A DNA stretch of 45,566 bases from a virus. Location: the IMG/VR virus record IMGVR_UViG_3300021440_000040, positions 1 through 45,566 of that record; one strand, 5' to 3'. Made by a program: the position numbers and the translations under genes. Shown here one piece after another: positions 5,254-36,723 of the stretch (the first letter of the stretch is position 1; every line of letters starts with the position of its first letter). A model generated the notes under the pieces. It saw only the letters and a program-made list of their open reading frames with translations. It was not told the origin of the DNA and searched no databases.

Positions 5254-5416
5254 GCAACTTGAAGAAACAAAGGTGCAAGAATCAAAAGGACATCCGCGAT
5301 TTACTGTGGGAGAATTGTTCCCATTTAAGGGTGTGTGGTTTGTCATAAAAGAGGTGACTAAGCAAGGCCTCGTTTTAGAAGCAAAAGCTTTTACAGCGAA
5401 GGGGGTTGTGCGATGA
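5246..5416 (+). CDS. Small hypothetical protein between glycosyltransferases
   Basis: 56 residues. ATG 5246 has SD AAAGGAGAG and overlaps the previous stop (ATGACTGA); its own stop overlaps the next ATG at 5413. A compact beta-type segment, FTVGELFPFKGVWFVIKEVTKQGLVLEAKAF given here in parts (residues 19-30 and 31-49), resembles small SH3-like phage proteins of unknown function. Tight coupling on both sides argues it is truly translated. Confidence 0.65.
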   Translation: MTEQLEETKVQESKGHPRFTVGELFPFKGVWFVIKEVTKQGLVLEAKAFTAKGVVR

Positions 5417-6426: not shown

Positions 6427-7132
6427 AACTGACCCTCCTCTCAACACTGTGGGGATTGTCATCCCCATGCGTGACGGGATGAAATTCTTTAAGCTGTGCC
6501 TTTACAGCGTTTTGAATTTCACGTTTCCACCTTACATGCTCACTGTGGTGGATAACCTTTCTGGACTAAGAACGAAAAGGCAGCTCCGGTCTTTATCCCA
6601 GAATCATCCTATCGAAATCCTTCGGTATGATGAGCCGTTTAATTTTTCGGCGCAAGTCAATCTAGGATTACGTCATGTGTTCAGCTTTCCGAATGTGAAG
6701 TACGGATTGATACTGAACGCAGACACTATTGTAGAGCCGGACTGGCTGACACATCTGTTGGTGATCATGAATTCCGACAAGTATGGAGCCGTTGGACCTC
6801 TCAGTAATGTCGCAATACCAGAGCAAGAAGGAAGACGAGAAAATATAGTAGAGCTCACACGCCGCCTGTCTGGGTTGTGTATGCTCATTAGACGTGAGGC
6901 GTTTGAAGAGGTGGGGGGCTTCGATGAGCAGTTTGTAGGTGGTGGATATGAAGATCAGGACTTTACGTTACGTCTTCTTAACACTGGATGGAAACTAGGA
7001 GTAGCTCGTAGAGTTTACATTCATCATTTTCACCGCGCATTTCGTACAGAGGAAAAGCACACCGAGGAAATGGAACTGAATCGGGTGCGATTTAATGAGA
7101 AGCATTTAGCTCTCAAAGGAGAATCAAAATGA
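6377..7132 (+). CDS. GT-A family 2 glycosyltransferase
   Basis: 251 residues from GTG 6377, selected because GGAGGAGG lies 6 bases upstream; it overlaps the end of the GT4-like gene by 50 bases. Family 2 features are clear: VGIVIPMRDGMKFFKLCLYS (residues 25-44), the metal-site region LILNADTIVEPDW (111-123, NAD in place of DxD), and GGFDEQFVGGGYEDQDFTLR (180-199) with the usual catalytic ED pair. The family transfers sugars from nucleotide-sugar donors. Its place between tube and chaperone genes suggests a virion substrate. Confidence 0.83.
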   Translation: MIELSDNGWPHSTVPFRTDPPLNTVGIVIPMRDGMKFFKLCLYSVLNFTFPPYMLTVVDNLSGLRTKRQLRSLSQNHPIEILRYDEPFNFSAQVNLGLRHVFSFPNVKYGLILNADTIVEPDWLTHLLVIMNSDKYGAVGPLSNVAIPEQEGRRENIVELTRRLSGLCMLIRREAFEEVGGFDEQFVGGGYEDQDFTLRLLNTGWKLGVARRVYIHHFHRAFRTEEKHTEEMELNRVRFNEKHLALKGESK

Positions 7133-18074: not shown

Positions 18075-18086
18075 CCCAATTGACCG

Positions 18087-18139
18087 CTAAATCATGCGTT
18101 CTAGCGCCCCGCTCCGTCGGAAGAATGGTTGTAAATTCC
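18087..18139 (-). repeat. Repeat element A (minus orientation)
   Basis: Read on the minus strand: GGAATTTACAACC, six variable bases and then CGACGGA within a 27-base block (with one more variable base), 19 variable bases, then GATTTAG followed by CGGTCAATT. The same block lengths are kept in elements B, C and D. Confidence 0.85.
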
Positions 18140-18157
18140 GGCTGGAGCGGGGCTTTT
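18106..18157 (+). terminator. Intrinsic terminator of the late operon, embedded in repeat element A
   Basis: GCCCCGCTCC (18106-18115) pairs perfectly with 18144-18153. Inside it CGGAA (18118-18122) pairs with TTCCG (18136-18140), and TTTT follows. It lies 31 bases after the last late-gene stop. The inner part coincides with repeat element A, so terminator and repeat share sequence. Confidence 0.75.
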
Positions 18158-18176
18158 AAGTACTTAAATTAGCTTA

Positions 18177-18205
18177 AATAAAAAAAATATTAGGTTAAGC
18201 GAATA
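18177..18205 (+). repeat. 29-bp core of boundary locus 1
   Basis: This is the exact reverse complement of 36724-36752: eight A residues followed by TATTAGGTTAAGCGAATA. A perfect 29-base match 18.5 kb away in non-coding DNA is far beyond chance. Confidence 0.95.
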
Positions 18206-18231
18206 TATAGCCCCAAACTCCCCCTATAGTG

Positions 18232-18284
18232 GGAATTTACAACCAATCCTACGACGGAAACAACCCAATTAAACGCTGATTTAG
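18232..18284 (+). repeat. Repeat element B (plus orientation)
   Basis: GGAATTTACAACC at 18232, CGACGGA ending at 18258, 19 variable bases, GATTTAG at 18278-18284, then GGCTCTATATT. Its 27-base block matches element A at 23-24 of 27 positions. It faces the early genes. Confidence 0.85.
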
Positions 18285-18299
18285 GGCTCTATATTCGTT

Positions 18300-18504
18300 A
18301 TTCAGTGAAAGTTTTTTTATTTTTTGCTAATTAAAAAATTCCTCGACGGTAGATTGAACCTCCGTAAAATAGGTTCTTTGAAAACGCATGTAAATCAAGC
18401 CTTTTCACGTGCAAAATTTTTTTGCTTTTTTCAAAAAGAAGAGCCATACTAAGAGTGTAGGACGGGAGGTCGCAAGGCCCCCACGAAACACCGGAGGTGC
18501 GAAA
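18300..18504 (+). promoter_or_regulatory. Leader region of the early operon with attenuator-like hairpin
   Basis: No gene is seen in this AT-rich stretch. It holds a partial extra copy of the element motif (TTCCTCGACGG at 18339-18349) and a short hairpin with T-run (GCAAAA 18411-18416 pairing with TTTTGC 18420-18425, then six T) that could act as a terminator or attenuator before the first early gene. The early promoter is expected between 18285 and 18410, but I find no convincing -35/-10 pair. Confidence 0.4.
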
Positions 18505-18753
18505 ATGAAAAATCTCAAAGACATCAAAGTGACCATGTCCTCTTGTGCCTACTGTGGAGGGTCCTGCTCTGCACACGCCGATGAAAATTCGCATGGCATT
18601 TGTTTGGACTGCCTGGTTAAAATTTCCCCAGACTGTCCTGCCGCCAAACTCCACGTGAAGGCCATGAAGCGCGGATTGAAACGCATGGTTGATGCAGGAC
18701 TTGATAGTCTGGTGCAGTCAGTAAACTACACCCAACAAGTGAACGAGAAATAA
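18505..18753 (+). CDS. Small zinc-finger-like early protein
   Basis: 82 residues from ATG 18505, chosen for the leader CCGGAGGTGCGAAA directly upstream. Two cysteine pairs, CAYCGGSC (residues 14-19) and CLDC (33-36), suggest a zinc ribbon. The rest is helical and basic (KAMKRGLKRMVDAG). As the first early gene it may be a host-takeover or regulatory protein; that is inference from position. Confidence 0.6.
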   Translation: MKNLKDIKVTMSSCAYCGGSCSAHADENSHGICLDCLVKISPDCPAAKLHVKAMKRGLKRMVDAGLDSLVQSVNYTQQVNEK

Positions 18754-18787
18754 TGTCAGTGGTTAATAAAAAACCGGAGGTGCGAAA

Positions 18788-18940
18788 ATGAGGAAAAAAC
18801 ATACATATACTTTTTCACATTGGGAATTTTCATGGTCGGCTGGAATGAAGGTGAGAAAATACGTTCGCGACGATGGGGTGATAGTGACACTTTCAAGGAA
18901 GCGTGTGGAAGAGCTTGAAAATGAAGGACGAATCAAGTGA
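18788..18940 (+). CDS. 50-residue early hypothetical protein
   Basis: It starts at ATG 18788 behind an exact 17-base copy of the leader used by the previous gene (18774-18790). The product is 50 residues, basic and aromatic at the start (MRKKHTYTFSHWEFSW) with a helix at the end (LSRKRVEELENEGRIK). The stop overlaps the next start (GTGA). It has no recognisable family. Confidence 0.55.
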   Translation: MRKKHTYTFSHWEFSWSAGMKVRKYVRDDGVIVTLSRKRVEELENEGRIK

Positions 18941-19239
18941 AACTCCCAACGACAGCCGCACGATTTAAGATCGCGGGAATGCGCGGGACCTTCAGCGTGT
19001 CAAAACACACAATGAAAATGATTTCAGGAGAAGAAAAATACGAGGGCTACTGGGATCGCGGAAACAAACAAAAGCCAGTTTTTGCCTACGGATTCACCAG
19101 AGAAGAAGCTTTGACTCGCGTGCTAGAGACTCCCGTATTAGCTGTGAAAGAAAACAATCTTCCCGAAGCTCGCACCTCCGGGAGAACTACGAGAATGCCG
19201 CCCTCCACTCCCTCCCCAGGGAGTAGGCGGCTTCCGTAG
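18937..19239 (+). CDS. Early hypothetical protein (start GTG)
   Basis: 100 residues from GTG 18937, coupled by GTGA to the upstream gene. The first 70 residues look protein-like (GTFSVSKHTMKMISGEEKYEGYW, FAYGFTREEALTRVLETP). The last 25 are encoded by a strongly structured DNA segment (19170-19231) and are Pro/Ser/Arg-rich, so the true protein may once have ended earlier or the tail may be constrained by RNA structure. Function unknown. Confidence 0.5.
   Translation: MKLPTTAARFKIAGMRGTFSVSKHTMKMISGEEKYEGYWDRGNKQKPVFAYGFTREEALTRVLETPVLAVKENNLPEARTSGRTTRMPPSTPSPGSRRLP
19197..19231 (+). terminator. GC-rich stem-loop at the end of an early gene
   Basis: GCCGCC (19197-19202) pairs with GGCGGC (19226-19231), and ACTCCCT (19207-19213) pairs with AGGGAGT (19218-19224) around a CCCC loop. 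No T-run follows. It may pause or stabilise transcripts. Confidence 0.5.
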
Positions 19240-19319
19240 GTGGGATCATAATTCGCCCCCTCCACGTGGGGATCCTGGGAAGTTTGCAGAGCGCGAATAA
19301 AAAACTTGGAGGTACAAAA

Positions 19320-19454
19320 GTGAAACAGTTTTTCTTGCTACTGCTTTTGTTAGTCCTCCAAGGATGTACTTGGATGAATGAAAATATAAAGTATTGGCCG
19401 ATGCCTTGTCGGTCATGCGAATGCTCGGAGGTGCGTGAATGTCGAAAAAATTAA
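19320..19454 (+). CDS. Small early lipoprotein
   Basis: 44 residues from GTG 19320, with leader TTGGAGGTACAAAA. The N-terminus is a lipoprotein signal: MKQFF, a hydrophobic run, then the lipobox LQGC with Cys16. The mature peptide is under 30 residues with four further cysteines (PCRSCEC, EC). Small early-expressed phage lipoproteins in other systems block superinfection at the envelope; Rz1-type o-spanins are also short but are late genes. A superinfection-exclusion role is therefore a reasonable guess. Confidence 0.55.
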   Translation: MKQFFLLLLLLVLQGCTWMNENIKYWPMPCRSCECSEVRECRKN

Positions 19455-19606
19455 CAGAACTTCAATTGAAAAAGACAAGAGATGTAATGTCTACGATATT
19501 TGGACAAGCTGTATATTTCATAACGGACGAAGCTGTCCAAGCATTCCATGACAATATACAGTCACAAGCAGACAAAGAAGCCAAAAACTCGGAGGTGCGA
19601 AAATAA
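19439..19606 (+). CDS. 55-residue early hypothetical protein
   Basis: ATG 19439 overlaps the end of the lipoprotein gene and uses the leader CTCGGAGGTGCGTGA. The product is a mostly helical 55-residue protein (LTELQLKKTRDVMSTIFGQA, then QAFHDNIQSQADKEAK). Its last residues are encoded by the next gene's leader, and its stop overlaps the next ATG. Function unknown. Confidence 0.5.
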   Translation: MSKKLTELQLKKTRDVMSTIFGQAVYFITDEAVQAFHDNIQSQADKEAKNSEVRK

Positions 19607-19857
19607 TGAACACGTTTATACTTGAGAAACGACAGCTGATGATTCCTCTAAAAAAAGAATTAAAACACGGAATAGTCCTCCAGGTATATGTTTACCCTTC
19701 TGGAGTAATCTATCCTATGTTTTCACCCTCCCCCGAAGAAAAAGAAGCTTATCTCAGCGAAATCCCAGAAGTGCAAGACGGACAGCTCACAACAATTCGA
19801 AAGCTCCAGTCTCGTGGCTGGAAATTATTACCCACTAAAAACTGGCAAGAATGCTAG
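19606..19857 (+). CDS. Early hypothetical protein
   Basis: 83 residues behind the fourth good copy of the conserved leader (CTCGGAGGTGCGAAAATA). It appears as beta strands then a helix (GIVLQVYVYPSGVIYPMF, LTTIRKLQSRGWKLL). No family recognised. It is co-transcribed with the neighbouring small genes. Confidence 0.55.
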   Translation: MNTFILEKRQLMIPLKKELKHGIVLQVYVYPSGVIYPMFSPSPEEKEAYLSEIPEVQDGQLTTIRKLQSRGWKLLPTKNWQEC

Positions 19858-19866
19858 GATTTTAAA

Positions 19867-20439
19867 ATGGCCCTGACGATTAAACGAGACAAACCAAAGG
19901 AGCCATTATTTATTTCTACTCCAGAAACTCGTACAAGGCTTTTGTGTGGGCATGCTGAGAGCTCTTTAACAAAAGAAGGTGTATGCTGGAAGTGCGATGC
20001 AAGAAGGCTACGTAGACTTTGGTATCCTACGAGCTATGAAATTAATCAAAAGGAGAATACAATGGCGTTAACGATGAAGAAACCTGGTGTGGTTGCTGAG
20101 AAAAAAGAAGTGGCTACTCCGGCGAAGAAAGCGGCGGTGACGGAAGTGAAAAAAGTTACCAAGGTTGCTACTCCTAAAGTTCAGGGAAAAACGTTACACC
20201 TGAACGTGTCCGGAACGTGGGCTCATTTGTTCAAGTCCGCTGCGTCCAAGAAAATGACGGACGCCCAAATCACGGAATTCATGATGAAAGAATTCCCGGA
20301 GCGCAAGTCCGAAACGTTCAAGGCCGTCGGCCACTGGCGTCGCATCTACAACCAGGGGAAGATGACGGAGGGTAAAGTGCCCTCGCCTTTGAGCGTGGCT
20401 TATGAACCTACGGCTCCTAAAGCGGCGGCGAAAAAGTAA
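19867..20439 (+). CDS. Zinc-ribbon plus basic-linker protein (long form of a nested pair)
   Basis: 190 residues from ATG 19867. Residues 1-65 include LLCGH (Cys27) and GVCWKC (about 43-46), a possible zinc ribbon. Residues 66-105 are an Ala/Lys/Val-rich basic segment resembling histone H1 tails (KKEVATPAKKAAVTEVKK). Residues 106-170 form a helical domain (TWAHLFKSAASKKMTDAQIT, EFPERKSETFKAVGHWRRIY). The MALTIK start is echoed by MALTMK at the internal start 20062. A DNA- or RNA-binding role is plausible. The upstream SD is weak compared with the internal one. Confidence 0.5.
   Translation: MALTIKRDKPKEPLFISTPETRTRLLCGHAESSLTKEGVCWKCDARRLRRLWYPTSYEINQKENTMALTMKKPGVVAEKKEVATPAKKAAVTEVKKVTKVATPKVQGKTLHLNVSGTWAHLFKSAASKKMTDAQITEFMMKEFPERKSETFKAVGHWRRIYNQGKMTEGKVPSPLSVAYEPTAPKAAAKK
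20062..20439 (+). CDS. Basic nucleic-acid-binding-like protein (short form)
   Basis: 125 residues from ATG 20062, in frame inside the longer reading frame, with a good SD (AAAAGGAGAAT). It lacks the cysteine-rich head and begins MALTMKKPG. It holds the AK-rich basic segment and the helical domain. This is probably the main product; the longer form may be a fusion of a small zinc-ribbon gene to it. Confidence 0.65.
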   Translation: MALTMKKPGVVAEKKEVATPAKKAAVTEVKKVTKVATPKVQGKTLHLNVSGTWAHLFKSAASKKMTDAQITEFMMKEFPERKSETFKAVGHWRRIYNQGKMTEGKVPSPLSVAYEPTAPKAAAKK

Positions 20440-20452
20440 ATGTTCTCGGCTC

Positions 20453-20506
20453 TCTACAGAGAGGCTGATAAATTAATCTTAGAGAAGGCGTCAGCCTCTC
20501 TGTAGA
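20453..20506 (+). other. 16-bp perfect stem-loop before the helicase gene
   Basis: Bases 20453-20468 pair perfectly with 20491-20506 around a 22-base AT-rich loop. There is no T-run, and the helicase SD/ATG follows 14 bases later. It is a candidate RNase III site, protein-binding operator or transcript stabiliser. Confidence 0.6.
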
Positions 20507-20520
20507 ACTGAGGAATAAAA

Positions 20521-21897
20521 ATGAGAGAGTGTTTACCTCATCAATTAAAGGCTCTTGAATATTGCCGAAATGCTCCTGGTGGAAACGTTGCACTTTTTAT
20601 GGAGATGCGTCTTGGCAAAACCAAGGTGATCATTGAGTGGCTACGGAACGTTAAAGGCAAGATCCTGGTGATTGCCCCGCTCTCCGTAGTTCGCTCCTGG
20701 GCCGAAGAGCTGGAGAAGGAGGGGGAAACGCGCCCCGAACTACTTTTAGGGGCTACAAAGGCAAAATTGGAGGCCTTAACCGTTGGTTTAGCGGCTCGTA
20801 GGAAGTGGTATTTGACTAATATTGAGGGGCTTAGCCATTTTGAGAAGGTTCTTTCGGACTATCGGTGGGAAGCCATAATCGTTGACGAGTCTACAAAAAT
20901 AAAAAATCCAAAAGCACAAGTGACAAAGCTCTTGATAAGTCACAGGGGAAATGCGAATCGAAGAGCCATCCTTTCTGGTAATCCTAACCCAGAGGGGCCG
21001 CTTGACTTATGTGAGCAGTTTCGATTTCTGTACGGAAGTTTCATGGGGCTGGACTCCTATTGGAAATTTAGGAACGTCGCCTTTTTCCCAGTAGGTCGCG
21101 GCTACGAATGGATTCTAAAAGCACCCTTCAGGCAGAGGATCAGAGATTACATCCAGAAATATGCGTTTGTTTTGAAGCGTTCCGAAGTTGGGCTTGCCAA
21201 TCAAAAATTCTATGAGACGAGAACTGTGGAAATGGAGCCTGAGCAAAAAAGACTCATGGAACGTCTCGAGAATGAATTCGCACTGGAGCTTCCTTCTGGA
21301 GAAGAAAAACTGACGAGTTGGGTTCCTGTGAAACTAGCGTGGATGGCGCGACTGGCTGGAGGATATCTAGATGGAAAAAAATGGTTTGATAGAAAAGTTG
21401 GTGAGCTTGAAGATATTCTTACGACGGAGTTATGCGGCGAATCTGTCGTTGTATGGTTCCGTTTTAATGCAGAAATTAGACGCGTCGCGGAACGTCTACG
21501 AAAAAACAAGGCATTTACTGGAGCTAGGAAAATTGGTATCATTGACGGAACAGTGGACGAAACAAGCAGAGCCTCGATTAGAAGAGCTTTTCAGAACGGA
21601 GAATTACAAACACTCCTCTGTCAGTCAAAAGTTGGAATGTTTGGGCTGGATCTTTCTCGTGCTAGCACGGCGATCTACTTCTCAAATAACTACTCATCCG
21701 AAATAAGAACACAGTCAGAAGACCGGATCGAGCATCCCCTCAAAAAAGAACCGCTCCTAATTATTGACATGGTAACTTCTGAAACAGTAGACGAGGACGT
21801 TGTAAAGGCTCTTCGGAGAAAAGGAAAAGAAAGTGAGAAATATCTCATGAAAGAACTGACCGAAAAAATCAGAGAGCGCACATTATGTCGAGCCTGA
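20521..21897 (+). CDS. SNF2-like DEAD/H-type helicase
   Basis: 458 residues. Superfamily 2 motifs are visible: Q-like LPHQLKALEY (5-14), Walker A MRLGKTK (29-35), Ia LVIAPLSVVRSW (49-60), DEST box IIVDESTKIKNP (119-130), III-like AILSGNP, and VI RTQSEDRIEH near residue 390. This is the SNF2/RAD54-like branch found in many phages. It would remodel DNA-protein complexes or help recombination-dependent replication. The stop overlaps the resolvase start, so the two are co-expressed. Confidence 0.88.
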   Translation: MRECLPHQLKALEYCRNAPGGNVALFMEMRLGKTKVIIEWLRNVKGKILVIAPLSVVRSWAEELEKEGETRPELLLGATKAKLEALTVGLAARRKWYLTNIEGLSHFEKVLSDYRWEAIIVDESTKIKNPKAQVTKLLISHRGNANRRAILSGNPNPEGPLDLCEQFRFLYGSFMGLDSYWKFRNVAFFPVGRGYEWILKAPFRQRIRDYIQKYAFVLKRSEVGLANQKFYETRTVEMEPEQKRLMERLENEFALELPSGEEKLTSWVPVKLAWMARLAGGYLDGKKWFDRKVGELEDILTTELCGESVVVWFRFNAEIRRVAERLRKNKAFTGARKIGIIDGTVDETSRASIRRAFQNGELQTLLCQSKVGMFGLDLSRASTAIYFSNNYSSEIRTQSEDRIEHPLKKEPLLIIDMVTSETVDEDVVKALRRKGKESEKYLMKELTEKIRERTLCRA

Positions 21898-22409
21898 GAC
21901 CTCCAATGCTGTCTATCGATCCTGGCACACAGTCGATGGGCTGGGCATTTTGGGATACTGGATCCAGGGATCTTGCATGTCGTCCCCCTGATGCAACGGG
22001 GCTAATCATCCCTTGGAGAGATCCACATAACACGGACTGGTGGGACAGGGCAGTGGAACAGGCTAATGGGCTGCTGTATAAAATTCCAATCCCTGCAAAA
22101 CGCCTCGATGTCTACTGCGAGATGCCCGTGTTTTTTGCAGGGACAGTTGGCGGTATGGCAGCGGCGGGAACAGGTTCTCTCCAGAAATTATGCTTTCAGG
22201 TTGGGTGTGTTGCACAGGCTGTTCGTGGTTTGTCTTGTTTTCGTCATTTTTATCCTGTTCTTGTAAATGAATGGAAGGGTCAACTTCCAAAAGAAGTTGT
22301 CATTCAAAGGATTAAAAAATTGCTCGGTGAAAAAGCGTGCAAGGATTACAGAAAAGATATGTGGGATGCTGTAGGAATTGGCCTATGGGCCAGGGGGGTT
22401 TTCAAGTGA
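21885..22409 (+). CDS. RuvC-like Holliday junction resolvase
   Basis: 174 residues with an RNase H fold. Acidic residues are in RuvC order: LSIDPGTQSMGWAFWD (Asp12), VYCEMP (Glu79), and KDMWDAVGIGLWA (Asp158, Asp161). It cuts branched DNA before packaging. ATG 21885 overlaps the helicase stop; a second ATG at 21906 is possible but would leave only four residues before the catalytic Asp. Confidence 0.82.
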   Translation: MSSLRPPMLSIDPGTQSMGWAFWDTGSRDLACRPPDATGLIIPWRDPHNTDWWDRAVEQANGLLYKIPIPAKRLDVYCEMPVFFAGTVGGMAAAGTGSLQKLCFQVGCVAQAVRGLSCFRHFYPVLVNEWKGQLPKEVVIQRIKKLLGEKACKDYRKDMWDAVGIGLWARGVFK

Positions 22410-23389
22410 TTATAAAAAAGAAGAAACATGTACTAGCGGAAACTTCGTTTAATCCGTTAAAAGAAGGAATTACACAGTCGATGCTTTGTTCATATTTGAA
22501 ATGTAGACGAGCTGCTAGTCTTGGACTACAAGGGTGGACACCTCTTAAAACGGCCAGCGTTCTGCAATTTGGAGAAATGGCCCATGGTGTTCTCGAAAAT
22601 ATCTATAAAGAGGGGCGGAAGAAGGCTCCCTCGGAAGAAGAGGTTCTGGAATTTATCAAAGAACAGGTAGAGGCGTGGGAGACATCTCCTCGTGGTCAGC
22701 GTGCCGGGGCCGAAGACCTTGAGCAACTCGAATTGAACACCGCGTTCCTGGAGGCCGTTCTTCCCTCTTACTTTAAATTCTGGGCGAAGGAGGACTTCGG
22801 ACAGCTCCAGTGGGTTGGGCTGGAAAAAGAATTCGACATCGAATTCGCGGGATTCCGTCTCCGAGGGAAGATGGATGGAATTTATCGTAAGGGCGGTCTT
22901 TGGGTTTTCGAGACAAAAACCAAAGGACGAATTGACGAGCAGAATATCTCGGAGCTTTTGTCTTTTGATTTTCAGTCCGACTTCTATTCTCTGGCGACTG
23001 AAAAATTATATAAAGAGCCGCCCGTCGGAATTCGTTACAATATCATTCGTCGTCCAGGACAAAAACTCGGAAAGAAAGAAACAGTGGTGGCTTTTAAAGA
23101 GCGTGTTCGTAAGGAAGTCTTAGCGGACCCGAAACATTATTTTATTCGCTACCGCGTAGACAAGTCGAAAGAAGACATGGAGGTCTTCAAACGAGAGTTG
23201 ACACAAATTCTAAAAGAGTATAAAGAATGGCAACAAGGGAAAATTGCAGACTTCAAAAACCCAACTTCATGTGTAGATAAATACGGAACATGTCGATTCC
23301 TTCGCATTTGTTCATCTAAAAATTACGCGGGATTCTACAAACGAGAGCACATGTTCGCCGAGCTTTCGAATAAAAAGAAAGGAGAATAG
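22406..23389 (+). CDS. Cas4/RecB-like PD-(D/E)XK nuclease with probable Fe-S cluster
   Basis: 327 residues from GTG 22406 (SD AGGGGGG, GTGA overlap); an upstream in-frame start at 22337 lies inside the resolvase gene. Nuclease residues are FGEMAHGVLE (His60), GKMDGIY (Asp157) and WVFETKTKG (Glu169, Lys171). Cysteines 28 or 33, 289, 296 and 302 fit the four-Cys Fe-S pattern of Cas4 and AddB nucleases. No Cas1, Cas2 or CRISPR array is near, so it is a recombination exonuclease acting with the Sak4-like protein downstream. Confidence 0.85.
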   Translation: MIIKKKKHVLAETSFNPLKEGITQSMLCSYLKCRRAASLGLQGWTPLKTASVLQFGEMAHGVLENIYKEGRKKAPSEEEVLEFIKEQVEAWETSPRGQRAGAEDLEQLELNTAFLEAVLPSYFKFWAKEDFGQLQWVGLEKEFDIEFAGFRLRGKMDGIYRKGGLWVFETKTKGRIDEQNISELLSFDFQSDFYSLATEKLYKEPPVGIRYNIIRRPGQKLGKKETVVAFKERVRKEVLADPKHYFIRYRVDKSKEDMEVFKRELTQILKEYKEWQQGKIADFKNPTSCVDKYGTCRFLRICSSKNYAGFYKREHMFAELSNKKKGE

Positions 23390-23391
23390 CT

Positions 23392-24207
23392 ATGAAAATT
23401 GGAGGGTCTTCTGAGAAACGAACAACCTTAGCTTTTCCGGCTAAGAAATCTGCACCCCGTCAAGACCTCGGAGAATTCAGCATCTTGATATTCGGGAGAG
23501 AGAAGATTGGAAAAACGAGCTTCGCCGCAGAATTCGACGACGCGTTATTCCTGATGTGTGAACCAGGAGGACGGGATCTTGAAATCTTCCAGAAGGAAGT
23601 TATGGACTGGAAAGAGTTTAAAGGGTTTGTAGAGCTCCTGGAGAACGACCGTGAACGCTTCAAAACCGTCGTCGTGGATACGGCGGACAGATGCTTCAAG
23701 ATGTGCGAAGAATATATGCTCAAGAAAATGGTGATTCAGCACGCTTCCGACGAAGACTTTGGGAAGGGTTGGTCGATGATTAGTGATGAATTCGCGTCAG
23801 TGATTCTTCGGCTGTTGAAAGTTGGGCGCGGCGTTATTTTCACGAGCCATGCGGCGGAAAAAGAAATCAAGGCGCGGGACGGAAGAAAATACGACCGAGT
23901 CGTTCCGACGATGTCGAAACAAGCGCGTCAAATTCTCGAGCCAATCGTGGACATTTGGGGGTACATGGAGTATGACCCTCAGGAAGGCCGCTCTCTTCGG
24001 CTTAGAGGGGATTCTCAAGTTTCCTGTGGGCATCGTCTCCAGAATCATTTCATCGGGATTGAATCTATCCCTATGGGTAAAACAGCAAAAGTGGCGTACA
24101 ATAATTTCGTGAGAGCCTTTAACAATGACCTCACGGAAGCTACAGCAGCGGTAGAACCTTCCTCTTCTACGGGGAAGAAACCAGCGTTGGTTCTAAGGAG
24201 GAAGTGA
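23392..24207 (+). CDS. Sak4-like RecA-fold ATPase (single-strand annealing/recombinase)
   Basis: 271 residues, with SD AAAGGAG. Walker A is FGREKIGKTSF (34-44), Walker B FKTVVVDTAD (90-99), and GVIFTSHAAEKE may act as a sensor. This is the usual length and motif set of phage Sak4 proteins, short RecA/Rad51-related annealing factors. The next gene is a DUF669-like ssDNA-binding protein, the known partner arrangement. Nuclease, annealase and SSB together form a recombination cassette. Confidence 0.84.
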   Translation: MKIGGSSEKRTTLAFPAKKSAPRQDLGEFSILIFGREKIGKTSFAAEFDDALFLMCEPGGRDLEIFQKEVMDWKEFKGFVELLENDRERFKTVVVDTADRCFKMCEEYMLKKMVIQHASDEDFGKGWSMISDEFASVILRLLKVGRGVIFTSHAAEKEIKARDGRKYDRVVPTMSKQARQILEPIVDIWGYMEYDPQEGRSLRLRGDSQVSCGHRLQNHFIGIESIPMGKTAKVAYNNFVRAFNNDLTEATAAVEPSSSTGKKPALVLRRK

Positions 24208-24208
24208 T

Positions 24209-24955
24209 ATGGCAAAAGAGCAATTCAAGTTGTCCAAGTCGCAGTTGTCAAAGGCGTGGAAAGACGCGCACAGCACCAAGGATGAGTTCCAAGGAGGTCA
24301 GGGATCTGTGTTCGAAGACGGACGCTACAAGGTCGCGTTGACAGATGCGGATCGCGGAGAGAGCAAAGCTTCAGGACGGGATCAGGTGATGTTCGAATTC
24401 ACTTTCCTGGACGGAGACTATGAGGGAAAAACGAAACGAGACTACAATGGTCTTGATCGTGTGGAGAGCGTTCCGTTCTTGATCTCCAAGATCGAGTCCA
24501 TGGGCGGAGAAGCTCCCGAGGACATCACTGACCTCGAAGGATGCCTCAAGTCATTGGTCAAAAAACGCCCGATTCTTCGAATCGTGTTGAAGACCAAAAA
24601 TGACTACCAGAACGTGTACATCGATCGTGTGCTGAAAGGTGAGGGCGACGAAGAAACTCCTGAGGTTCCTGCGGACGTGGAGGAAGCTCCTTCGAGCTCT
24701 CGTAGCAAGGTGTCAAAAGAGGCTCCTGCGGAAGAGCCGACACCGAGTGACGAAGACGTTAGCATTGAAGTCGGGATGCTCGTCCGTTGCATGGAAGAGG
24801 GAGAAGAAGTTTGTCGTGGAGAAATCACCGCAATCGACGAGGAGAATGCGGAAGTGACCGTGAAAAATGAGAAGACTGGTAAAAAACAGATCTTCCCTGC
24901 AGCGGATCTTCTCCTCATCGAAAAAGAAGAGCTGAAACCCGCGAAAAAAGCGTGA
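24209..24955 (+). CDS. ssDNA-binding protein (DUF669-like) with C-terminal SH3-like domain
   Basis: 248 residues. Residues 1-145 match the DUF669 type layout (FEDGRYKVALTDADRGESKA, VMFEFTFLDGDYEGKTKRDY). Next come a Glu/Pro/Ser-rich linker (about 148-185) and a small beta domain (IEVGMLVRCMEEGEEVCRGEITAIDEENAEVTV, given by residues about 186-220) resembling KOW/SH3 folds. It ends basic (KPAKKA) rather than with the acidic tip of bacterial SSB. It partners the upstream Sak4-like gene. Confidence 0.78.
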   Translation: MAKEQFKLSKSQLSKAWKDAHSTKDEFQGGQGSVFEDGRYKVALTDADRGESKASGRDQVMFEFTFLDGDYEGKTKRDYNGLDRVESVPFLISKIESMGGEAPEDITDLEGCLKSLVKKRPILRIVLKTKNDYQNVYIDRVLKGEGDEETPEVPADVEEAPSSSRSKVSKEAPAEEPTPSDEDVSIEVGMLVRCMEEGEEVCRGEITAIDEENAEVTVKNEKTGKKQIFPAADLLLIEKEELKPAKKA

Positions 24956-25019
24956 TGGTTCGTCGCAAGTAATTCACTCGGTGGGATGCGCATACCAGAA
25001 AACGCATAAGGAAGTGTCT

Positions 25020-25334
25020 ATGAAATTTAAAAAAACACTTACAGAAAAAGATATAGTAGCAATCCCTTACGGGGCTTTACCGTGCAGCCTTGTAACGTTT
25101 ACGATTAAAGGAAAAGAGTCTAATGTGTCATATTTTGTAGAAATGGTACGAGATGACTGTCCTCCTCAGTGTAGTGGATATGACTGCCACAATATGCACG
25201 CCGAATCACTAGCACTAGACGTCGTTAGAGAAAGAATTAAGACTATACATAAACTAACTGACGAAGACATATTACTGATACAGCAAAAATTAGAAGACAT
25301 TCTCAGAGTGGGCGACTGCGGATGGTGTGTATAG
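25020..25334 (+). CDS. Cysteine-rich hypothetical protein
   Basis: 104 residues from ATG 25020 (SD AAGGAAG). It contains DDCPPQCSGYDCHNMH (about residues 47-62) and a final GDCGWCV, a possible metal site. The remainder is mixed alpha/beta. No family recognised. Confidence 0.55.
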   Translation: MKFKKTLTEKDIVAIPYGALPCSLVTFTIKGKESNVSYFVEMVRDDCPPQCSGYDCHNMHAESLALDVVRERIKTIHKLTDEDILLIQQKLEDILRVGDCGWCV

Positions 25335-25367
25335 TCTATATATTCTACGGAAATAAATGGAGGAATC

Positions 25368-25877
25368 GTGAATACTATTCAAACAGAAATGACATCACTT
25401 CTTCACCCAGTTTATAAATCTATTTATTTGGCAGGGCCGTTTTTCGACGATCAGCAATTAGAGACCGTAGAACGCGTAGAACAAATTTGTGAAGCTGTCA
25501 AAGTGAAATGCAATTCTCCTCGTAAATTCTTGGTACTAAAGCCAAAGGCTTGTTGGGAAGAACGTCGTTTGGTGTTTCGCGACAACCTTTTAAAATTACA
25601 ATCCAGTGAAATAGTACTGGCGTGTCTCGACGGAATGGATGCCGGGACTCTCTGGGAGATGGGGTATGCTTATGCTATTGGACGTCCCGTTGTTGCGTTC
25701 TCGGCCAACGAGATGCACAAGGTGAACGTGATGCTGGCCCAGGGATGTCGGGGGTTCTTATACGGCTTGCAAGCCGTCGAAGAGTTTCTTTTAGGGGTTC
25801 CGGGAGACGGAATTGTGTCTCCTGGATGGGACTATGACTGGGAGTTAGCAGAAGAATGGAAGGCGGAAATTCAATGA
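25368..25877 (+). CDS. Nucleoside 2-deoxyribosyltransferase
   Basis: 169 residues from GTG 25368 (SD GGAGGAA). Family motifs: SIYLAGPFF (18-26) binds the base and sugar, and LACLDGMDAGTLWEMGYAYAIGRPVV contains the Asp and the catalytic Glu97. The family swaps bases on deoxynucleosides or hydrolyses deoxynucleotides. In phages it usually accompanies nucleotide salvage or base modification, and here it is followed by HD phosphohydrolase and ThyX-like genes. Confidence 0.84.
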   Translation: MNTIQTEMTSLLHPVYKSIYLAGPFFDDQQLETVERVEQICEAVKVKCNSPRKFLVLKPKACWEERRLVFRDNLLKLQSSEIVLACLDGMDAGTLWEMGYAYAIGRPVVAFSANEMHKVNVMLAQGCRGFLYGLQAVEEFLLGVPGDGIVSPGWDYDWELAEEWKAEIQ

Positions 25878-26488
25878 TTGAACATTTGGAACTAAAAAAT
25901 CTTGTATGCGGAGTGGGGAATCAACTTCGCTATGTTGATAGATTTTCGACTTGCCGTCGGAATCGTAATGAAAATGTTGCAGAGCACCAGTATTTTACAG
26001 CATTTTTTACACTGGTTATCTGCCAACACCTAAAAGATGTCGTCATTAATTCGGGAGAAGCTGTAACCCGCGCCCTCCTCCATGATGTCGAAGAGCATTA
26101 CACCGGAGATATCGTACGCCCGGTAAAGCATGGATCCAGGTCTTTAAAAAATGCGATGGAAAAAGCAGGGAAGCAATTCACCCATAAATTCTTCTCCTCA
26201 CTGACGACGTCTGTCCCTGTTCAAGACTGGATGACGAGGCAGTGGGAGCTGGCAAAGGACACAAGCAGGGAGGGCCGCGTCGTTCGATTCGCCGACTACT
26301 TGTCGGTGCTGGCTTATCTTCACCAGGAAGTCGCCTCTGGAAATAAACTGGTCATGGAAAACGTGAGCCAGCTAGAGATATATGCCAAGACGTTCGACGA
26401 CCCGTCGTTTCAATTCATAAGGCCCCTGGTAGTCTTATCTGTCAAAATAATCCAGGAGATTTATCGTGACGCGCGATCTCAAGGTTAG
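25874..26488 (+). CDS. HD-domain deoxynucleotide phosphohydrolase (YfbR/DatZ-like)
   Basis: 204 residues from ATG 25874, in an ATGA overlap with the deoxyribosyltransferase. The metal set is RFSTCRRNRNENVAEH (His38), ALLHDVEEHYTGDIVRPVK (His70-Asp71, Glu74) and VRFADYL (about Asp145). YfbR dephosphorylates dNMPs, and related DatZ enzymes destroy dATP in phages with modified adenine. No PurZ is present here, so a YfbR-like role in reshaping the dNTP pool is the cautious call. Confidence 0.78.
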   Translation: MIEHLELKNLVCGVGNQLRYVDRFSTCRRNRNENVAEHQYFTAFFTLVICQHLKDVVINSGEAVTRALLHDVEEHYTGDIVRPVKHGSRSLKNAMEKAGKQFTHKFFSSLTTSVPVQDWMTRQWELAKDTSREGRVVRFADYLSVLAYLHQEVASGNKLVMENVSQLEIYAKTFDDPSFQFIRPLVVLSVKIIQEIYRDARSQG

Positions 26489-26771
26489 AAAAGAGAGATC
26501 GCGTCGCTATGGAGATCACACTGAGGGATGCACCAACCTGGGGATGATTTGGACAGGGATTCTGCAGCTTTACTACGGGATCAAGCTGGACCATCCAATC
26601 CCAGCAAATATAGTAGAGCTCATGATGTCGGGCAGTAAGCTTGGAAGAGCCGCGCTCGATCCCTCAGGAAAAGATCACTACACTGATGGAAGAGTGTATC
26701 TTTCGTTAGCTGAGGAGTCTGCGGAACGAACAATTAAGGGTGGCGTGAAGCTCAAAAAAGAAGTAGCCTAA
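26466..26771 (+). CDS. DUF6378-like small protein
   Basis: 101 residues from GTG 26466 (SD CAGGAGA). The sequence YGDHTEGCTNLGMIWTGIL, then a helix bundle with GRAALDPSGKDHYTDGRVYLSLA, matches a small all-helical family common in phages (DUF6378-like, related to MazG-type folds). A second domain of this type is fused to a phosphoribosyltransferase at 32339. No enzymatic role is established to my knowledge. Confidence 0.65.
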   Translation: MTRDLKVRKERSRRYGDHTEGCTNLGMIWTGILQLYYGIKLDHPIPANIVELMMSGSKLGRAALDPSGKDHYTDGRVYLSLAEESAERTIKGGVKLKKEVA

Positions 26772-26795
26772 ATTCAAATACAAGGAGATGTAAAA

Positions 26796-27716
26796 ATGAC
26801 ACATGAAAATGGTAGTCCGAAAGTAACCCTCCTCAGCTGGACTCAGTCCCCGGTAGAAACGATCTACAGGATTTGGGAGTCGAGCCGAGGGCAAAGATCC
26901 TTGAACGAGATCGACAAGGACATTTATCTTGGAAACCCTCGTGTCTATGAAATCTTCAAACAGGTGATCGATTCGAAGCTTCCTGTTTCTGAGAATTTGA
27001 GCTTTGTGTTCCTCCTGGAAAATGTGTCGATCAGTTTCCGGGAGCAAATGGTTCGCCACCGCATCGGTGTGAAGGCAGGGCCGCTTTTAGGAATTGACAT
27101 GATTCCTGACCTGGCGGACAGCACCTGGTGGTCACAGACCATGCGCGTTTTGGACATGGGAGCCTTTGCCGACGAGAAGCGCTATCGCGTCCCGGACGGA
27201 CTTACTCCAGAGCAAGAGGATGAATTCCACGTGGCGATGAAAGTGTCTCAAGATGCCTACAATCGTCTGGTGAAAGCAGGGATTCCGAATCAAGAAGCCC
27301 GTGAAGTCATTCCCCTAGGGGCCACCCATCGGATTACGTGGAGCTTGAATTTGTCAGCTCTCCAGCATATCGTTGGTAAGAGGGGCTGTCAAATTGCACA
27401 GCTTGGATTGTGGCGTCCCGTGATTGAGGGGATGGTAGACGAAATGTCCTCCAAAGTCCATGAGTATTTCAGGACGCTTATTTCCCCTCCTTGCATGAAG
27501 GGGGATAAATACACAGGCTGTCTTTTCAAAATTGAAAATGACAGGCGCATCGACGGAACGGATCAGTACCCTCCGTGTACTCTGTGTGTTGGACAAGATC
27601 ATGACAACCGTACAGAGGCCGTCCCGGCGAATCAACGCGTCGCATTCATGGAATCCTTTCACCGCTACAGAGCGTTGTGGCAACGCGACCCGCTGACAGG
27701 AGAAAGACTTAAATGA
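26796..27716 (+). CDS. ThyX-like flavin-dependent thymidylate synthase (divergent)
   Basis: 306 residues, with SD CAAGGAG. The fold signature is FREQMVRHRIGVKAGPLLG (81-99) with the RHR of ThyX, and THRITWSLNLSALQHIV...KRGCQIAQLGLW for the second motif. The usual RHRxxSxNxxSxR is broken: the serines and arginine appear as STWWSQTMR about 20 residues later (109-117). A C-terminal Cys group (CMKGDKYTGC, PPCTLC) is extra. It probably makes dTMP or a related modified dUMP. It is coupled to the polymerase by ATGA. Confidence 0.72.
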   Translation: MTHENGSPKVTLLSWTQSPVETIYRIWESSRGQRSLNEIDKDIYLGNPRVYEIFKQVIDSKLPVSENLSFVFLLENVSISFREQMVRHRIGVKAGPLLGIDMIPDLADSTWWSQTMRVLDMGAFADEKRYRVPDGLTPEQEDEFHVAMKVSQDAYNRLVKAGIPNQEAREVIPLGATHRITWSLNLSALQHIVGKRGCQIAQLGLWRPVIEGMVDEMSSKVHEYFRTLISPPCMKGDKYTGCLFKIENDRRIDGTDQYPPCTLCVGQDHDNRTEAVPANQRVAFMESFHRYRALWQRDPLTGERLK

Positions 27717-29650
27717 TCCCGAAGGGAAAGGTCATAGCTCTCGATACGGAAACGACAGGATTATTTCCTTACGGTGAATTCGGTGCACGTGCATTCGCCG
27801 TGTCGTTCTGCAACGAGGAAGGGGATACCGGACTGATGCAATGGCCCGTCGATCCTTTTACCAGAATGCCGAAACCTCGTGAAGAGGACTTACGGGAGCT
27901 TCGACGTTTCTGCTCGGATAAAAAAATAACGAAGGTGTTCTTTAACGCAAAATTTGACATCCGGATGCTCAAGTTTTGGGGGGCCGAAGTCCTTGGGAGA
28001 GTTGAGGATGTATTCTTCATGGCTAAAATCCTGAGAGCCAATGAACCTTCTCACGGACTGAAGCCCCTGGCTAAAAAATATCTCGGCATGACGGACGAGG
28101 ATCAAAAAGAGCTGCAGCAGTCGGTTTTGAAGGGCCGTCGCCTGGGAAAAAAGAACGGATGGAAAATCGCGGAGAAAGGGGACGACACCAAAAATCCTGC
28201 AGCGGCGGATTACTGGTTGGCGGATCCCGCTCTCTTGAAAAAATACGCGGTGCAGGATGCAGAACGCACCATGCTCTTGTATCGAATCCTGAACGAGGAG
28301 CTGGATACAGCGGAGGCTTATCGCAAGTTCTACGAGCGCGAATTAGTGCTCCTGGGAGTGACGATGCGGATGGAAGATTATGGAGTGCGCATTCGTCCAA
28401 GCGTCGTGCAGGAAGAAATAAAAAAGAACACAGCACTCATGGAAGACAGGCTCAAGAAGATTCAAGAGCTGACGCGTCCTTATTATTGCACAGCGAAAAC
28501 GGAGAAGAAGAAACGAGAACAGGAGCGGGATTTTTATTTCAATCCGAATTCAACGAGTCAAGTGGTCGATTTCGTGTACAAAAAATTAGAATTCCCCATC
28601 ATGAAATACACGGATACGGGAAATCCTGCCGTCGACCTGGAAGCACTGAAAGACATGGAGCATCCTGTCATTCATTATCTCCAAGAATACAAGGCGTCGG
28701 AAAAAGCGATAGCCTCTTTTTTCCAGAAATACGCATCTCTGTCTGTCCCGGACGACGAAGGGCACATGATTCTTCATCCGAGCTTTAATCAAATCGGGCC
28801 GATAACGGGGCGGTATTCGTGTAGTAACCCTAACCTTCAGAACGTAGCCAACGCAACTTCAGTGCGTGCTGTTGCGCCTATACAGGCCAGGACACCGTTC
28901 TGCCCACGCATGGGCAAGGAGTGGTATTGTTTTGACTACGACAGCCAAGAAGCCTGGCTGTTCGCTGCCGGGGCACATGAAGATGTGATGCTTGACTCTC
29001 TTTTGAACGGGAAAGACCTACACACAGAAACGGCTGAATTTATCTGGGGAAAAGAACAGGTGGCGCATGAATTCGCGACCGTTGGAAAAAAGAAGAGTCT
29101 CAGTCGTATCCGTTCCAAAATGCTCCTTTACGGAATTATCTATGGAATGGGGATCAAGAAAACGGCCGCAGTGTTGGGATGCTCTTCTGCTGAAGCGGAG
29201 AGCACGCTGAACAGATACTACACTCGCTTCCCTCGTATCAAAACTTTCATGGATGTGACAAGTACAAAGGCCGCGAGGCTCGGATATGTGGAAACAGCCT
29301 GGGGGCGCAGAATCCAAGTAGAATCGGACTGGGCTTATCGCGCCGTGAATTATTACGTCCAAGGGTCTGCAGCCGACATGCTGAAGGACGCGATGATAAG
29401 TGTGGACAGGTTATTTCAAGGACTCAGAATAGACGCCCATGTACTCATGACTGTGCACGACGAATTAATCGTAGAAATAGCAAAGAAGGACGTGACACAA
29501 AAGCTCCTAAATGACGTAAAAAGTCGCATGGAAAGTCACGGGGGAAACCTTCCCGCGATCCCAAAGATCCCTTGCGGCATGGCGCGTGTTATTAAGTCCT
29601 GGAATTTACAAGAAAAAGTCGACCTTTCGCTACTTCCTAAAGGAGGATAG
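27713..29650 (+). CDS. DNA polymerase I (family A) with 3'-5' exonuclease
   Basis: 645 residues. Exonuclease motifs: ALDTETTGL (Asp11, Glu13), FFNAKFDIRML (about 77-86) and YAVQDAERT (Asp182). Polymerase: motif A FDYDSQEAW (Asp408, Glu413; unlike the usual DYSQIELR), motif B SRIRSKMLLYGIIYG (Arg465, Lys469, Tyr473, Tyr477), motif C TVHDELIVE (His582-Glu584). Tyr473 aligns with E. coli Phe762, a state associated with virulent phages and fast synthesis. There is no 5'-3' exonuclease domain. This is the replicative enzyme, next to the primase-helicase. Confidence 0.93.
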   Translation: MIPKGKVIALDTETTGLFPYGEFGARAFAVSFCNEEGDTGLMQWPVDPFTRMPKPREEDLRELRRFCSDKKITKVFFNAKFDIRMLKFWGAEVLGRVEDVFFMAKILRANEPSHGLKPLAKKYLGMTDEDQKELQQSVLKGRRLGKKNGWKIAEKGDDTKNPAAADYWLADPALLKKYAVQDAERTMLLYRILNEELDTAEAYRKFYERELVLLGVTMRMEDYGVRIRPSVVQEEIKKNTALMEDRLKKIQELTRPYYCTAKTEKKKREQERDFYFNPNSTSQVVDFVYKKLEFPIMKYTDTGNPAVDLEALKDMEHPVIHYLQEYKASEKAIASFFQKYASLSVPDDEGHMILHPSFNQIGPITGRYSCSNPNLQNVANATSVRAVAPIQARTPFCPRMGKEWYCFDYDSQEAWLFAAGAHEDVMLDSLLNGKDLHTETAEFIWGKEQVAHEFATVGKKKSLSRIRSKMLLYGIIYGMGIKKTAAVLGCSSAEAESTLNRYYTRFPRIKTFMDVTSTKAARLGYVETAWGRRIQVESDWAYRAVNYYVQGSAADMLKDAMISVDRLFQGLRIDAHVLMTVHDELIVEIAKKDVTQKLLNDVKSRMESHGGNLPAIPKIPCGMARVIKSWNLQEKVDLSLLPKGG

Positions 29651-29860
29651 ATGGTGCGCAAAGTACATTTGATCCAGAAAATATGCAGCACAGCTCATGT
29701 GGAAAGAGTAAAAAAAGACTATCCGAATTTAACGTTTGAAGAATTAATCGCACTGATGAGCTGGCTGAATTTAATGTCGGATATCAAACAGTGCGTCGAG
29801 TCTACCTTCTCAAGGGAGAATTTCAATAATGAATCGTCCGACAAAAAAAGAGCAAATTGA
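29651..29860 (+). CDS. Small hypothetical protein between polymerase and primase
   Basis: 69 residues with SD AAAGGAGG. All helical (DYPNLTFEELIALMSWLNLMSDIKQC at about residues 24-48). It overlaps the primase gene start by 32 bases. No family recognised; the position suggests a replication accessory role. Confidence 0.55.
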   Translation: MVRKVHLIQKICSTAHVERVKKDYPNLTFEELIALMSWLNLMSDIKQCVESTFSRENFNNESSDKKRAN

Positions 29861-31964
29861 CAACTTGAACGGATTCAGGCAACACGGCGTGAATTTAGAC
29901 AGGGAAGCTTCGGGACAAATGGTAGGAGATTGTCCATTCTGTGCAAAAGAGGGTCATTTTTATGTCAATAAAGAAACAAAGTTATGGGATTGTAAACGCT
30001 GTGGTGAGCGAGGAAATTTTGAAGACTTCTTATCGGCTGTTGCCCAAGGATACAGCGAGGGACTTACTGAAGAACGTTTACGTGCACTGGCCGACGATCG
30101 TGGGCTACCTGTTGGAGCGTTTCGAAATCTTGGAATCGGATGGACAGGAAATCGATATTCGATTCCTGTTCAGAATAACAAGGGGCGAACTTTGGACATC
30201 AGACTTTATCGTCCTGGAGGGAAGCTGCTGTCTACCCCAACTGCGACGACGGGACTGTTTAACCTCCGGGATTTGGTGCTGGAGGAGCGCAAGAAGGAGC
30301 GAGTATACATTTGCGAGGGGGAATGGGACACAATTGCCTGGAGATGGCTTTTGTTGCATCTCGACGAGCCAGGGGTCGTGGTTGGTGTGCCTGGCGCCAA
30401 CACTTTCAAGGGGTTCTGGGTTCCTTTCTTCGAGGGACGGGACGTCGTCATCCTTTACGACAACGATGCCGCAGGTCGTTCAGGAGAACTCATCGTTCGA
30501 GCCAAGCTTTCAGGAACTACAAAAAGCATACGCTACTTACACTGGCCAGCTATCGGACTTGATGAAGGCTATGACATACGAGACCATGTCAAGAAAGTCG
30601 CCCTCCTTGAGAACCATCCACCTCAAGCGTTTGAGCAGATTACTGACTGGCTTAAAAATAGCCCAAGGGAGGGAGCACTTGAAGGAGGAGCTTCTGGGTC
30701 GCGGTCATCTAACGGAGAGGTTATCGGGGAGATCACCGAATCCTACGAACCGATCACGACGAAAGAGCTGATCGCTGATTACAAAAAATGGCTCCACATG
30801 AAGTCCGACGATGCACTGAAAGTCATGTACGGTGCGATCCTTGCGAATAAAATGGGAGGGGATCCGCTATGGCTTTTTCTTGTTGCACCTCCAGGAGGTA
30901 TGAAGTCGGAACTGCTGATGTCGCTTTCGAAGGGAGAAGGCGTTCACGCCCTGTCTTCTTTAACGCCGCACACGCTTATATCTGGAGCCACGTGGAAGGA
31001 AGGTCAGGATCCTTCACTTTTGCCCAAGCTCAACAACAAGATCTTGATCGTAAAGGATTTCACAACCCTTCTAACGCTCCATCACTCGGTGCGTGATGAA
31101 ATCTTTGGAACGCTTCGAGACGTTTACGACGGCAATACGGAGAAAATATTCGGGAACGGAGTGCGTCGTAAGTACGAGAGTAGCTTTGGAATTCTGGCAG
31201 GTGTAACGCCGGCTATTGAGGCCTTCAATACCATCCACGCAGGACTTGGGGAACGCTTCCTGAAATTCAGACTGTGCGGGAATTGGGATCAGGACTCTGA
31301 AGAAGCAAAGATCATGAGGGCCTTAAACAATATCGGACGCGAAGGGCAAATGCGGAATGAACTGACCAAAATCGGATGCCGATGGCTTGCAAACATGAAG
31401 CTCCCTGAAATCTTTCCAGAGCTCACCCACGACCGCAAGCTGATGCTCGTGCATTTGGCGAAATGGGCAGCTCGGTTACGCGGCGTGGTTGAACGCGACC
31501 GCTTTAGTGGAACGGTTATGTACAAGCCTTCCAGTGAAGTCGGGACGCGGCTTGCAAAGCAACTGGCTAAGTTGGGCCAGGGGATTGCCATGTTCCTGGA
31601 GAAGAAGGCTGTGGACGACGAAGTCTATGAGTTGGTTAGGCGTGTGGCCCTGGACACCGTGCCGGACCGCGTAGAAGACATCGTGCACGCGCTATGGGAC
31701 GCTACAGGAGGGGATGAAGGGACATGCTCGACGACAGACATCGTCATCAAGACACGCCTTCCACAAGCCACCGTGTTTCGATGCTTGCAGGACATGAACC
31801 TTTTGAAGCTGGTAGAAAATATGTCAGCTAAAGGAGTGGCGGCATGGAGGTTGTCAGCGAAGCTTACGGAGCACATTAAAATAGGAGGTGTGTATGTCGG
31901 AAAAACCAAAGCCGTCAAAAAAGGATTATCCATTCGATCTGTCAAAAAAACCGCCAATCGTTGA
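29829..31964 (+). CDS. Primase-helicase (zinc finger, Toprim, ATPase, winged helix)
   Basis: 711 residues. Zinc ribbon: CPFC and CKRC (Cys35, 38, 55, 58). Toprim: YICEGEWDT (Glu163) and LYDNDAAG (Asp211, Asp213). ATPase: Walker A APPGGMKSE (353-361) and Walker B KILIVKDF (404-411). C-terminal winged-helix-like segment TTDIVIKTRLPQATVFRCLQ near 640-665. It is preceded by a flexible Gly/Ser linker at 280-300. It would lay primers and unwind DNA for the family A polymerase. The helicase domain is not the T7 DnaB type but resembles archaeo-eukaryotic-plasmid AAA-type modules. Confidence 0.88.
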   Translation: MNRPTKKEQIDNLNGFRQHGVNLDREASGQMVGDCPFCAKEGHFYVNKETKLWDCKRCGERGNFEDFLSAVAQGYSEGLTEERLRALADDRGLPVGAFRNLGIGWTGNRYSIPVQNNKGRTLDIRLYRPGGKLLSTPTATTGLFNLRDLVLEERKKERVYICEGEWDTIAWRWLLLHLDEPGVVVGVPGANTFKGFWVPFFEGRDVVILYDNDAAGRSGELIVRAKLSGTTKSIRYLHWPAIGLDEGYDIRDHVKKVALLENHPPQAFEQITDWLKNSPREGALEGGASGSRSSNGEVIGEITESYEPITTKELIADYKKWLHMKSDDALKVMYGAILANKMGGDPLWLFLVAPPGGMKSELLMSLSKGEGVHALSSLTPHTLISGATWKEGQDPSLLPKLNNKILIVKDFTTLLTLHHSVRDEIFGTLRDVYDGNTEKIFGNGVRRKYESSFGILAGVTPAIEAFNTIHAGLGERFLKFRLCGNWDQDSEEAKIMRALNNIGREGQMRNELTKIGCRWLANMKLPEIFPELTHDRKLMLVHLAKWAARLRGVVERDRFSGTVMYKPSSEVGTRLAKQLAKLGQGIAMFLEKKAVDDEVYELVRRVALDTVPDRVEDIVHALWDATGGDEGTCSTTDIVIKTRLPQATVFRCLQDMNLLKLVENMSAKGVAAWRLSAKLTEHIKIGGVYVGKTKAVKKGLSIRSVKKTANR

Positions 31965-33230: not shown

Positions 33231-33263
33231 TAGAAGTATATCACTGACGTAAAGGGAGACACA

Positions 33264-33485: not shown

Positions 33486-33489
33486 ATAA

Positions 33490-33554: not shown

Positions 33555-33574
33555 TATTAAAAGGAGACTACAAA

Positions 33575-33763: not shown

Positions 33764-33774
33764 AGGGGTCGATT

Positions 33775-33963: not shown

Positions 33964-33965
33964 AC

Positions 33966-34637: not shown

Positions 34638-34638
34638 G

Positions 34639-34923: not shown

Positions 34924-34925
34924 AG

Positions 34926-36717: not shown

Positions 36718-36723
36718 ACTATC

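Follow-up and report, generated by a model that had tools for sequence, protein, structure and literature searches.

Described origins and initiator proteins

In phage P4, a single protein, alpha, combines a zinc ribbon, a TOPRIM-type primase, an SF3 helicase, and a C-terminal winged helix, and two cis sites are needed, ori and crr, the latter of which is not an origin by itself. In the pri-rep-ori module of the PICI/SaPI satellite islands, an AT-rich region lies between two sets of recognition repeats, the primase and the initiator helicase are sometimes fused, and the C-terminal domain of Rep recognizes the origin (PMC6092414, PMC7581432). The 44-kb Bacillus phage SPP1 possesses two origins of similar build, oriL and oriR, which contain an AT-rich unwinding element and direct repeats bound by gp38, a protein working with a DnaB-type helicase; the two origins are about 13 kb apart, and one lies inside gene 38 (PMC6316719). 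MCM-like helicases, in which an MCM-type AAA+ domain occurs with a winged helix, are known from phages and from mobile elements of bacteria (BcMCM, SCCmec Cch); where a primase is linked to an MCM-type ATPase in that study, it is of the archaeo-eukaryotic type (PMC5862659).

The window analyzed here, which is the whole 45,566-base record of a virus, contains two loci (at 18.2 and 36.7 kb) that, by analogy, are best read as putative origins organized like those of the PICI/SaPI satellite islands, but paired. As in PICI/SaPI, the arms (elements A/B and C/D) flank cores that rank as the least and second least stable DNA of the genome, and the candidate initiator, encoded at 29.8-32.0 kb, has a predicted C-terminal winged helix. 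In contrast, each PICI/SaPI repeat set consists of several short direct repeats, whereas an arm in the window is one bipartite element. Furthermore, the PICI/SaPI origin is single and lies directly 3' of rep, whereas the window represents a full phage in which the loci are 1-9 kb or more from the initiator gene and the arms are mutually inverted. The likeness to SPP1 lies in the presence of two similar loci with an AT-rich element, but the helicase here is MCM-like and no gp38-like protein was identified; searches with ten early/late proteins against PHROGs and ten against Pfam, which covered part of the small early proteins, gave no gp38-, gp39-, or gp40-like match. By description, P4 alpha is similar in joining primase, helicase, and C-terminal winged helix in one protein and in the use of two cis sites, and is set apart by its SF3 helicase in place of an MCM-like one. 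Contrary to BcMCM and SCCmec Cch, a DnaG-type zinc ribbon and TOPRIM region is fused here to the MCM-like AAA+ domain, and a limited literature search found no description of a DnaG-type primase/MCM fusion. An origin in which recognition repeats surround an AT-rich core and are read by an initiator helicase is of a kind already known; the novelty lies in the placement of a pair of loci, one at each border of the replication cluster, in letters that turn over while the geometry stays constant, and in a primase-MCM fusion as the likely reader.

Two inverted loci at the borders of the early gene cluster

The record is listed as linear with ends, but a 131-bp direct terminal repeat (1-131 and 45435-45565, 99% identical) indicates that the map is circular and the phage genome complete. 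All substantial genes of the window lie on the plus strand. On the circular map, the late and structural genes run from 36874 through the record end and on to 18074, and the early/replication gene cluster (18505-36587, plus strand) lies between the two loci. Locus 1 marks the border between the late end and the early start, and locus 2 that between the early end and the late start, which bears out the original prediction that the loci sit at the early/late boundaries.

Locus 1 is composed of element A as the left arm (18087-18139, minus strand), an AT-rich core (18140-18231), and element B as the right arm (18232-18284, plus strand), and locus 2 of element C (36619-36671, minus strand), a core (36672-36790), and element D (36791-36843, plus strand). 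Each element comprises a 27-bp block, 19 free bases, and GATTTAG, and the pattern GGAATNNNCAACN8CGACGGA-N19-GATTTAG is common to all four with zero mismatches in the fixed letters. The four 53-bp elements with their 27+19+7 layout, arranged as divergent pairs (A/B and C/D) that point outward, were therefore exactly where they had been predicted. When the whole 45.6 kb was scanned with CAACN8CGACGGA-N19-GATTTAG at up to 3 mismatches, with shuffled sequence as the chance baseline, only A-D were recovered (0.02 matches expected). The prospect that many more copies exist elsewhere, named in advance as evidence against the prediction, did not materialize, as there is no fifth copy in this genome and no other IMG/VR contig with the exact motif. 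In addition, an 18-bp sequence, TATTAGGTTAAGCGAATA, occurs exactly in both cores on opposite strands (18188-18205, plus; 36724-36741, minus), which makes each locus an inverted copy of the other. Compared on opposite strands, they match at 73% over about 130 bp, and the early cluster is faced by the same side of the core at both. A resemblance of GTTGTAA to the E. coli Ter site was too short, and this candidate was dropped.

The claim that no coding explains the elements held, and an Rfam match was also absent at the loci. A function at the level of RNA or packaging, as bidirectional terminators, a hairpin RNA, or a pac/cos site, is highly improbable. The inverted arms could fold in RNA and terminase genes lie close downstream of locus 2, but A-D have sequence in common and not just complementarity, and positions that would need to pair are different in C and D. 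Moreover, intrinsic terminators (a GC-rich stem followed by a T run) numbered 0 at locus 2 against 0.5 expected, with one weak 5-pair stem at locus 1 against 0.9 expected, which is no better than in shuffles.

Architecture of the loci in related phages

The letters of the elements are nearly private to the window phage, whereas the architecture is not. No contig in IMG/VR except this genome contains the exact 27+19+7 motif, a search with a 17-bp core gave one unrelated chance match, and a scan of bacterial genomes gave just two matches, both distant. In the nearest relative, IMGVR_UViG_3300032516_000043 (terminase 74% and primase-helicase 79% identical), loci occur at both equivalent places and are likewise mutually inverted. 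With the 27+19+7 scoring matrix, an element with a spacer of 19 was recognizable there in arm B only (CGTCGGT-N19-AAATTAG), and the other three arms did not score. The exact layout was not kept in related contigs, and the recovery of arm B alone suggests that this layout is peculiar to the window phage, as one form of a more general architecture.

To describe this architecture, phages sharing the primase-helicase (about 31-47% identity) were retrieved as whole contigs, each of which was compared with itself. Related loci were found at both borders of the replication cluster in 13 genomes, including the window and its nearest relative, at a distance of 15-22 kb from each other, and in these 13 genomes the primase-helicase gene lies between them, circularly where needed. 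The loci of the relatives are mostly dyads around an AT-rich core, with letters unlike those of the window. In IMGVR_UViG_3300018080_000197, four bipartite elements consist of AATCCCTA, a spacer, and a 15-bp block (AATCCCTA-N13-15-bp block), and the spacer is exactly 13 bases in 4/4. The original reading of fixed spacing as the mark of a complex contacting both blocks gains independent support from this constant N13. In several relatives, the arms contain 11-bp direct repeats, such as AAAACGCTATA AAAACGCTATA, and self-similarity averaged over 25 loci peaks at a lag of 11 (z 8.4). No such 11-bp signal was found in the arms of the window, which possess one bipartite element each rather than iterons. 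Several genomes of the family gave no clear locus pair by self-comparison, and a dyad search near the primase gene was positive in 13/79 relatives versus 3/74 controls.

The relative orientation of the two loci is inverted in some genomes and direct in others, and the arms form dyads in both cases, as would be expected of a site that works symmetrically. This variation disfavors recombinase sites that invert or exchange the replication cluster. Two related inverted loci around a gene module would be a natural way of swapping modules between phages, but the shared proteins include none identified as a recombinase, and the melting cores would be left unaccounted for; we regard this explanation as barely credible. 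It is also rather improbable that an origin at one locus is combined with a protein-bound barrier to forks at the other, or with a helper site as for ori and crr of P4, from which concatemer synthesis would start. Fork stalling at the initiator-bound oriR has been proposed as the trigger of the switch in SPP1 (PMC6316719), and an origin with a barrier would fit IMGVR_UViG_3300017991_000168, the one genome among the 13 in which one border has a dyad but the other just one element; however, most relatives have a full dyad and core at both loci, equally unstable.

Duplex stability of the cores and promoter sequences

Duplex stability was calculated as nearest-neighbor energy in 60-bp segments and ranked over the whole genome. 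The core of locus 2 is the least stable place of the window and that of locus 1 the second least stable. The cores hold ranks 1 and 2 by instability in 8/12 two-locus genomes (the window and 7/11 others), where the tested positions had been picked from dyads; they are the third and fourth least stable places in one further two-locus genome, and the nearest relative has one locus outside its 40 least stable places. Among the family genomes without a pair by self-comparison, 8/11 show a dyad-like match, some of them weak, at one of the three least stable places. A dyad score of at least 16 at the least stable place was found in 13/24 family genomes versus 2/45 unrelated contigs (Fisher p about 5e-6), these controls being at least 10 kb long and mostly shorter than the family genomes.

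A transcriptional function, in which a phage regulator bound to the elements would switch the early operon at locus 1 and the late operon at locus 2, would have no need for the genome's least stable DNA to lie between dyad arms. The loci do lie upstream of both operons, and only 30 bp separate the end of element D from the start of the first late gene (36874), so that the late promoter must be very close to element D and a promoter role could partly explain this element. Between locus 1 and the first early gene, a weak sigma-70-like promoter (TTGCTT-N17-CATACT; 18422-18450, plus strand), below the scan threshold, was read by eye, and stronger promoters occur at the same place in two relatives (TTGCAA-N17-TATAAT and TTGACA-N17-TATTAT). 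One relative has a good sigma-70 promoter after locus 1 and, overlapping the right arm of its locus 2, the promoter-like sequence TTGACA-N18-TAGACT. On the other hand, elements A and C face back into operons that run in one common direction, at whose 3' ends a promoter would yield antisense RNA only. A sigma-70 scan (-35/-10 hexamers 16-18 bp apart) gave 0 matches at locus 2 and 2 at locus 1 versus 0.9 expected, which does not exceed chance, both of them outside A and B. Overall, a transcription switch appears unlikely, with locus 2 as the place where it could best be accommodated.

Genes that accompany the loci

Only four early proteins of the window were detected in all of the two-border relatives (12/12): a PD-(D/E)XK nuclease, a Sak4-like protein, a family A DNA polymerase, and the primase-helicase. 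The universally shared proteins are thus replication and recombination proteins only, which also counts against a transcription switch. Packaging and structural proteins are common to the window, its nearest relative, and IMGVR_UViG_3300035701_000235; this last contig, a 26.8-kb fragment with a 75% identical terminase, has no replication proteins and no dyad, whereas the layout is kept in relatives with unrelated terminases. These observations argue against a packaging site, and since the layout tracks the replication proteins and not the structural or packaging genes, the loci go with replication.

Two proteins that had been suggested as binders of the elements are poorly distributed. The protein at 18505 is not conserved and is absent even from the nearest relative; the small protein at 36874 has a homolog in the nearest relative only, and was rejected as the binder.

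The primase-helicase as a candidate initiator

The obvious candidate for binding the arms is the protein encoded at 29829-31964 (plus strand), for which a DnaG-type primase, an MCM-like helicase, and a C-terminal winged helix are predicted in one chain. Its primase region is DnaG-like, with a zinc ribbon and TOPRIM. In the predicted structure (mean pLDDT 81), the AAA+ domain matches MCM2-7 with a Foldseek E of about 1e-8, and the VIA comparison aligned 291 residues with a Z of 19.5 and an rmsd of 5.0, the best rows being all MCM. Motifs are readable in the order typical of MCM: PPGGMKS, KDF, AGVTP, and ERFLKF. Among isolated phages, relatives were found for just part of the primase, mostly in Microbacterium phages. 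The primase-helicase frame of IMGVR_UViG_3300033145_000723 (43827-45851) contains one in-frame TGA, to be explained by a sequencing error, by a break in the gene, or by reassignment of that stop codon.

Proposed initiation at two origins

Based on these comparisons, the two loci probably constitute a pair of bidirectional replication origins. The original prediction had left open an origin, a transcription switch, and a recombination site; of these, the origin is favored by the least stable DNA at both cores, the dyad arms, the iteron-like 11-bp repeats in several relatives, and the linkage to replication proteins, while recombination is disfavored by the varying orientation and transcription control keeps some plausibility at locus 2.

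In the proposed mechanism, each origin would consist of an AT-rich unwinding core between two inverted copies of the bipartite recognition element. The primase-helicase may bind the inverted arms through its winged helix, after which the AT-rich core could melt. Two oppositely oriented rings could then be loaded on the melted core and depart in opposite directions, and the attached primase may prime its own forks, which would provide starting strands for the polymerase of the phage. One of the sites may mainly block forks and thereby trigger the formation of concatemers, the role proposed for oriR of SPP1. Binding, melting, ring loading, and the firing of both sites are steps that we infer.

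GC skew, by which an origin had been expected to be mapped, was not decisive. The minimum of third-codon GC skew is at 19.9 kb in the window, near locus 1, and at 59.6 kb in one relative with a locus at 59.1 kb, but well away from the loci in two other relatives. Regulatory regions, too, are commonly AT-rich and contain dyads, which counts against the origin reading. The skew, the poor arms of the nearest relative, the genomes without a pair, and the bipartite rather than iteron-like arms hold the origin reading at probable and leave a minor share to the transcription switch.

A broader proposal can be put forward more tentatively, at somewhat less than even confidence: in a widespread group of uncultivated tailed phages, an all-in-one initiator (DnaG-type primase, MCM-like ring, and winged helix) may load oppositely facing rings at two dyad origins bordering the replication cluster, the letters of which turn over completely while geometry, position, and melting core stay. 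If so, this class of origin could be found from sequence alone in uncultivated phages, as two dyads on the two least stable places at the cluster borders. A bacterial-type primase and an MCM-like ring would be combined in one protein and paired with a small symmetric origin, which would offer a simple system for testing whether MCM-type rings load head to head at a defined sequence. Phages in which the origin letters turn over while the geometry stays fixed also lend themselves to studies of how initiator and origin evolve together.

Other genes of the window

Several further genes were noted. The family A polymerase (27713-29650, plus strand) has an NCBIfam match to the aminoadenine-incorporating DpoZ (3.6e-49) that is weaker than its match to DNA polymerase I. 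Frames resembling an HD phosphohydrolase (25856-26488, plus strand) and a nucleoside deoxyribosyltransferase (25368-25877, plus strand) were seen by eye next to the polymerase gene, and no PurZ was noticed. The 73-aa protein encoded at 33264-33485 (plus strand) matches solved bacterial histones, namely the DUF1931 protein 9qt0 (E 8e-6) and the CBFD_NFYB_HMF proteins 8cmp and 8fvx (E 7e-4), and by these matches is assigned as a phage-encoded histone-fold protein; its counterpart in the nearest relative, with 65% conservation, is encoded just before locus 2. Among the structural genes, four plus-strand frames (4177-5253, 5413-6426, 6332-7132, and 42959-43714) appear by eye to encode glycosyltransferase-type enzymes, which are 60-79% conserved in the nearest relative.
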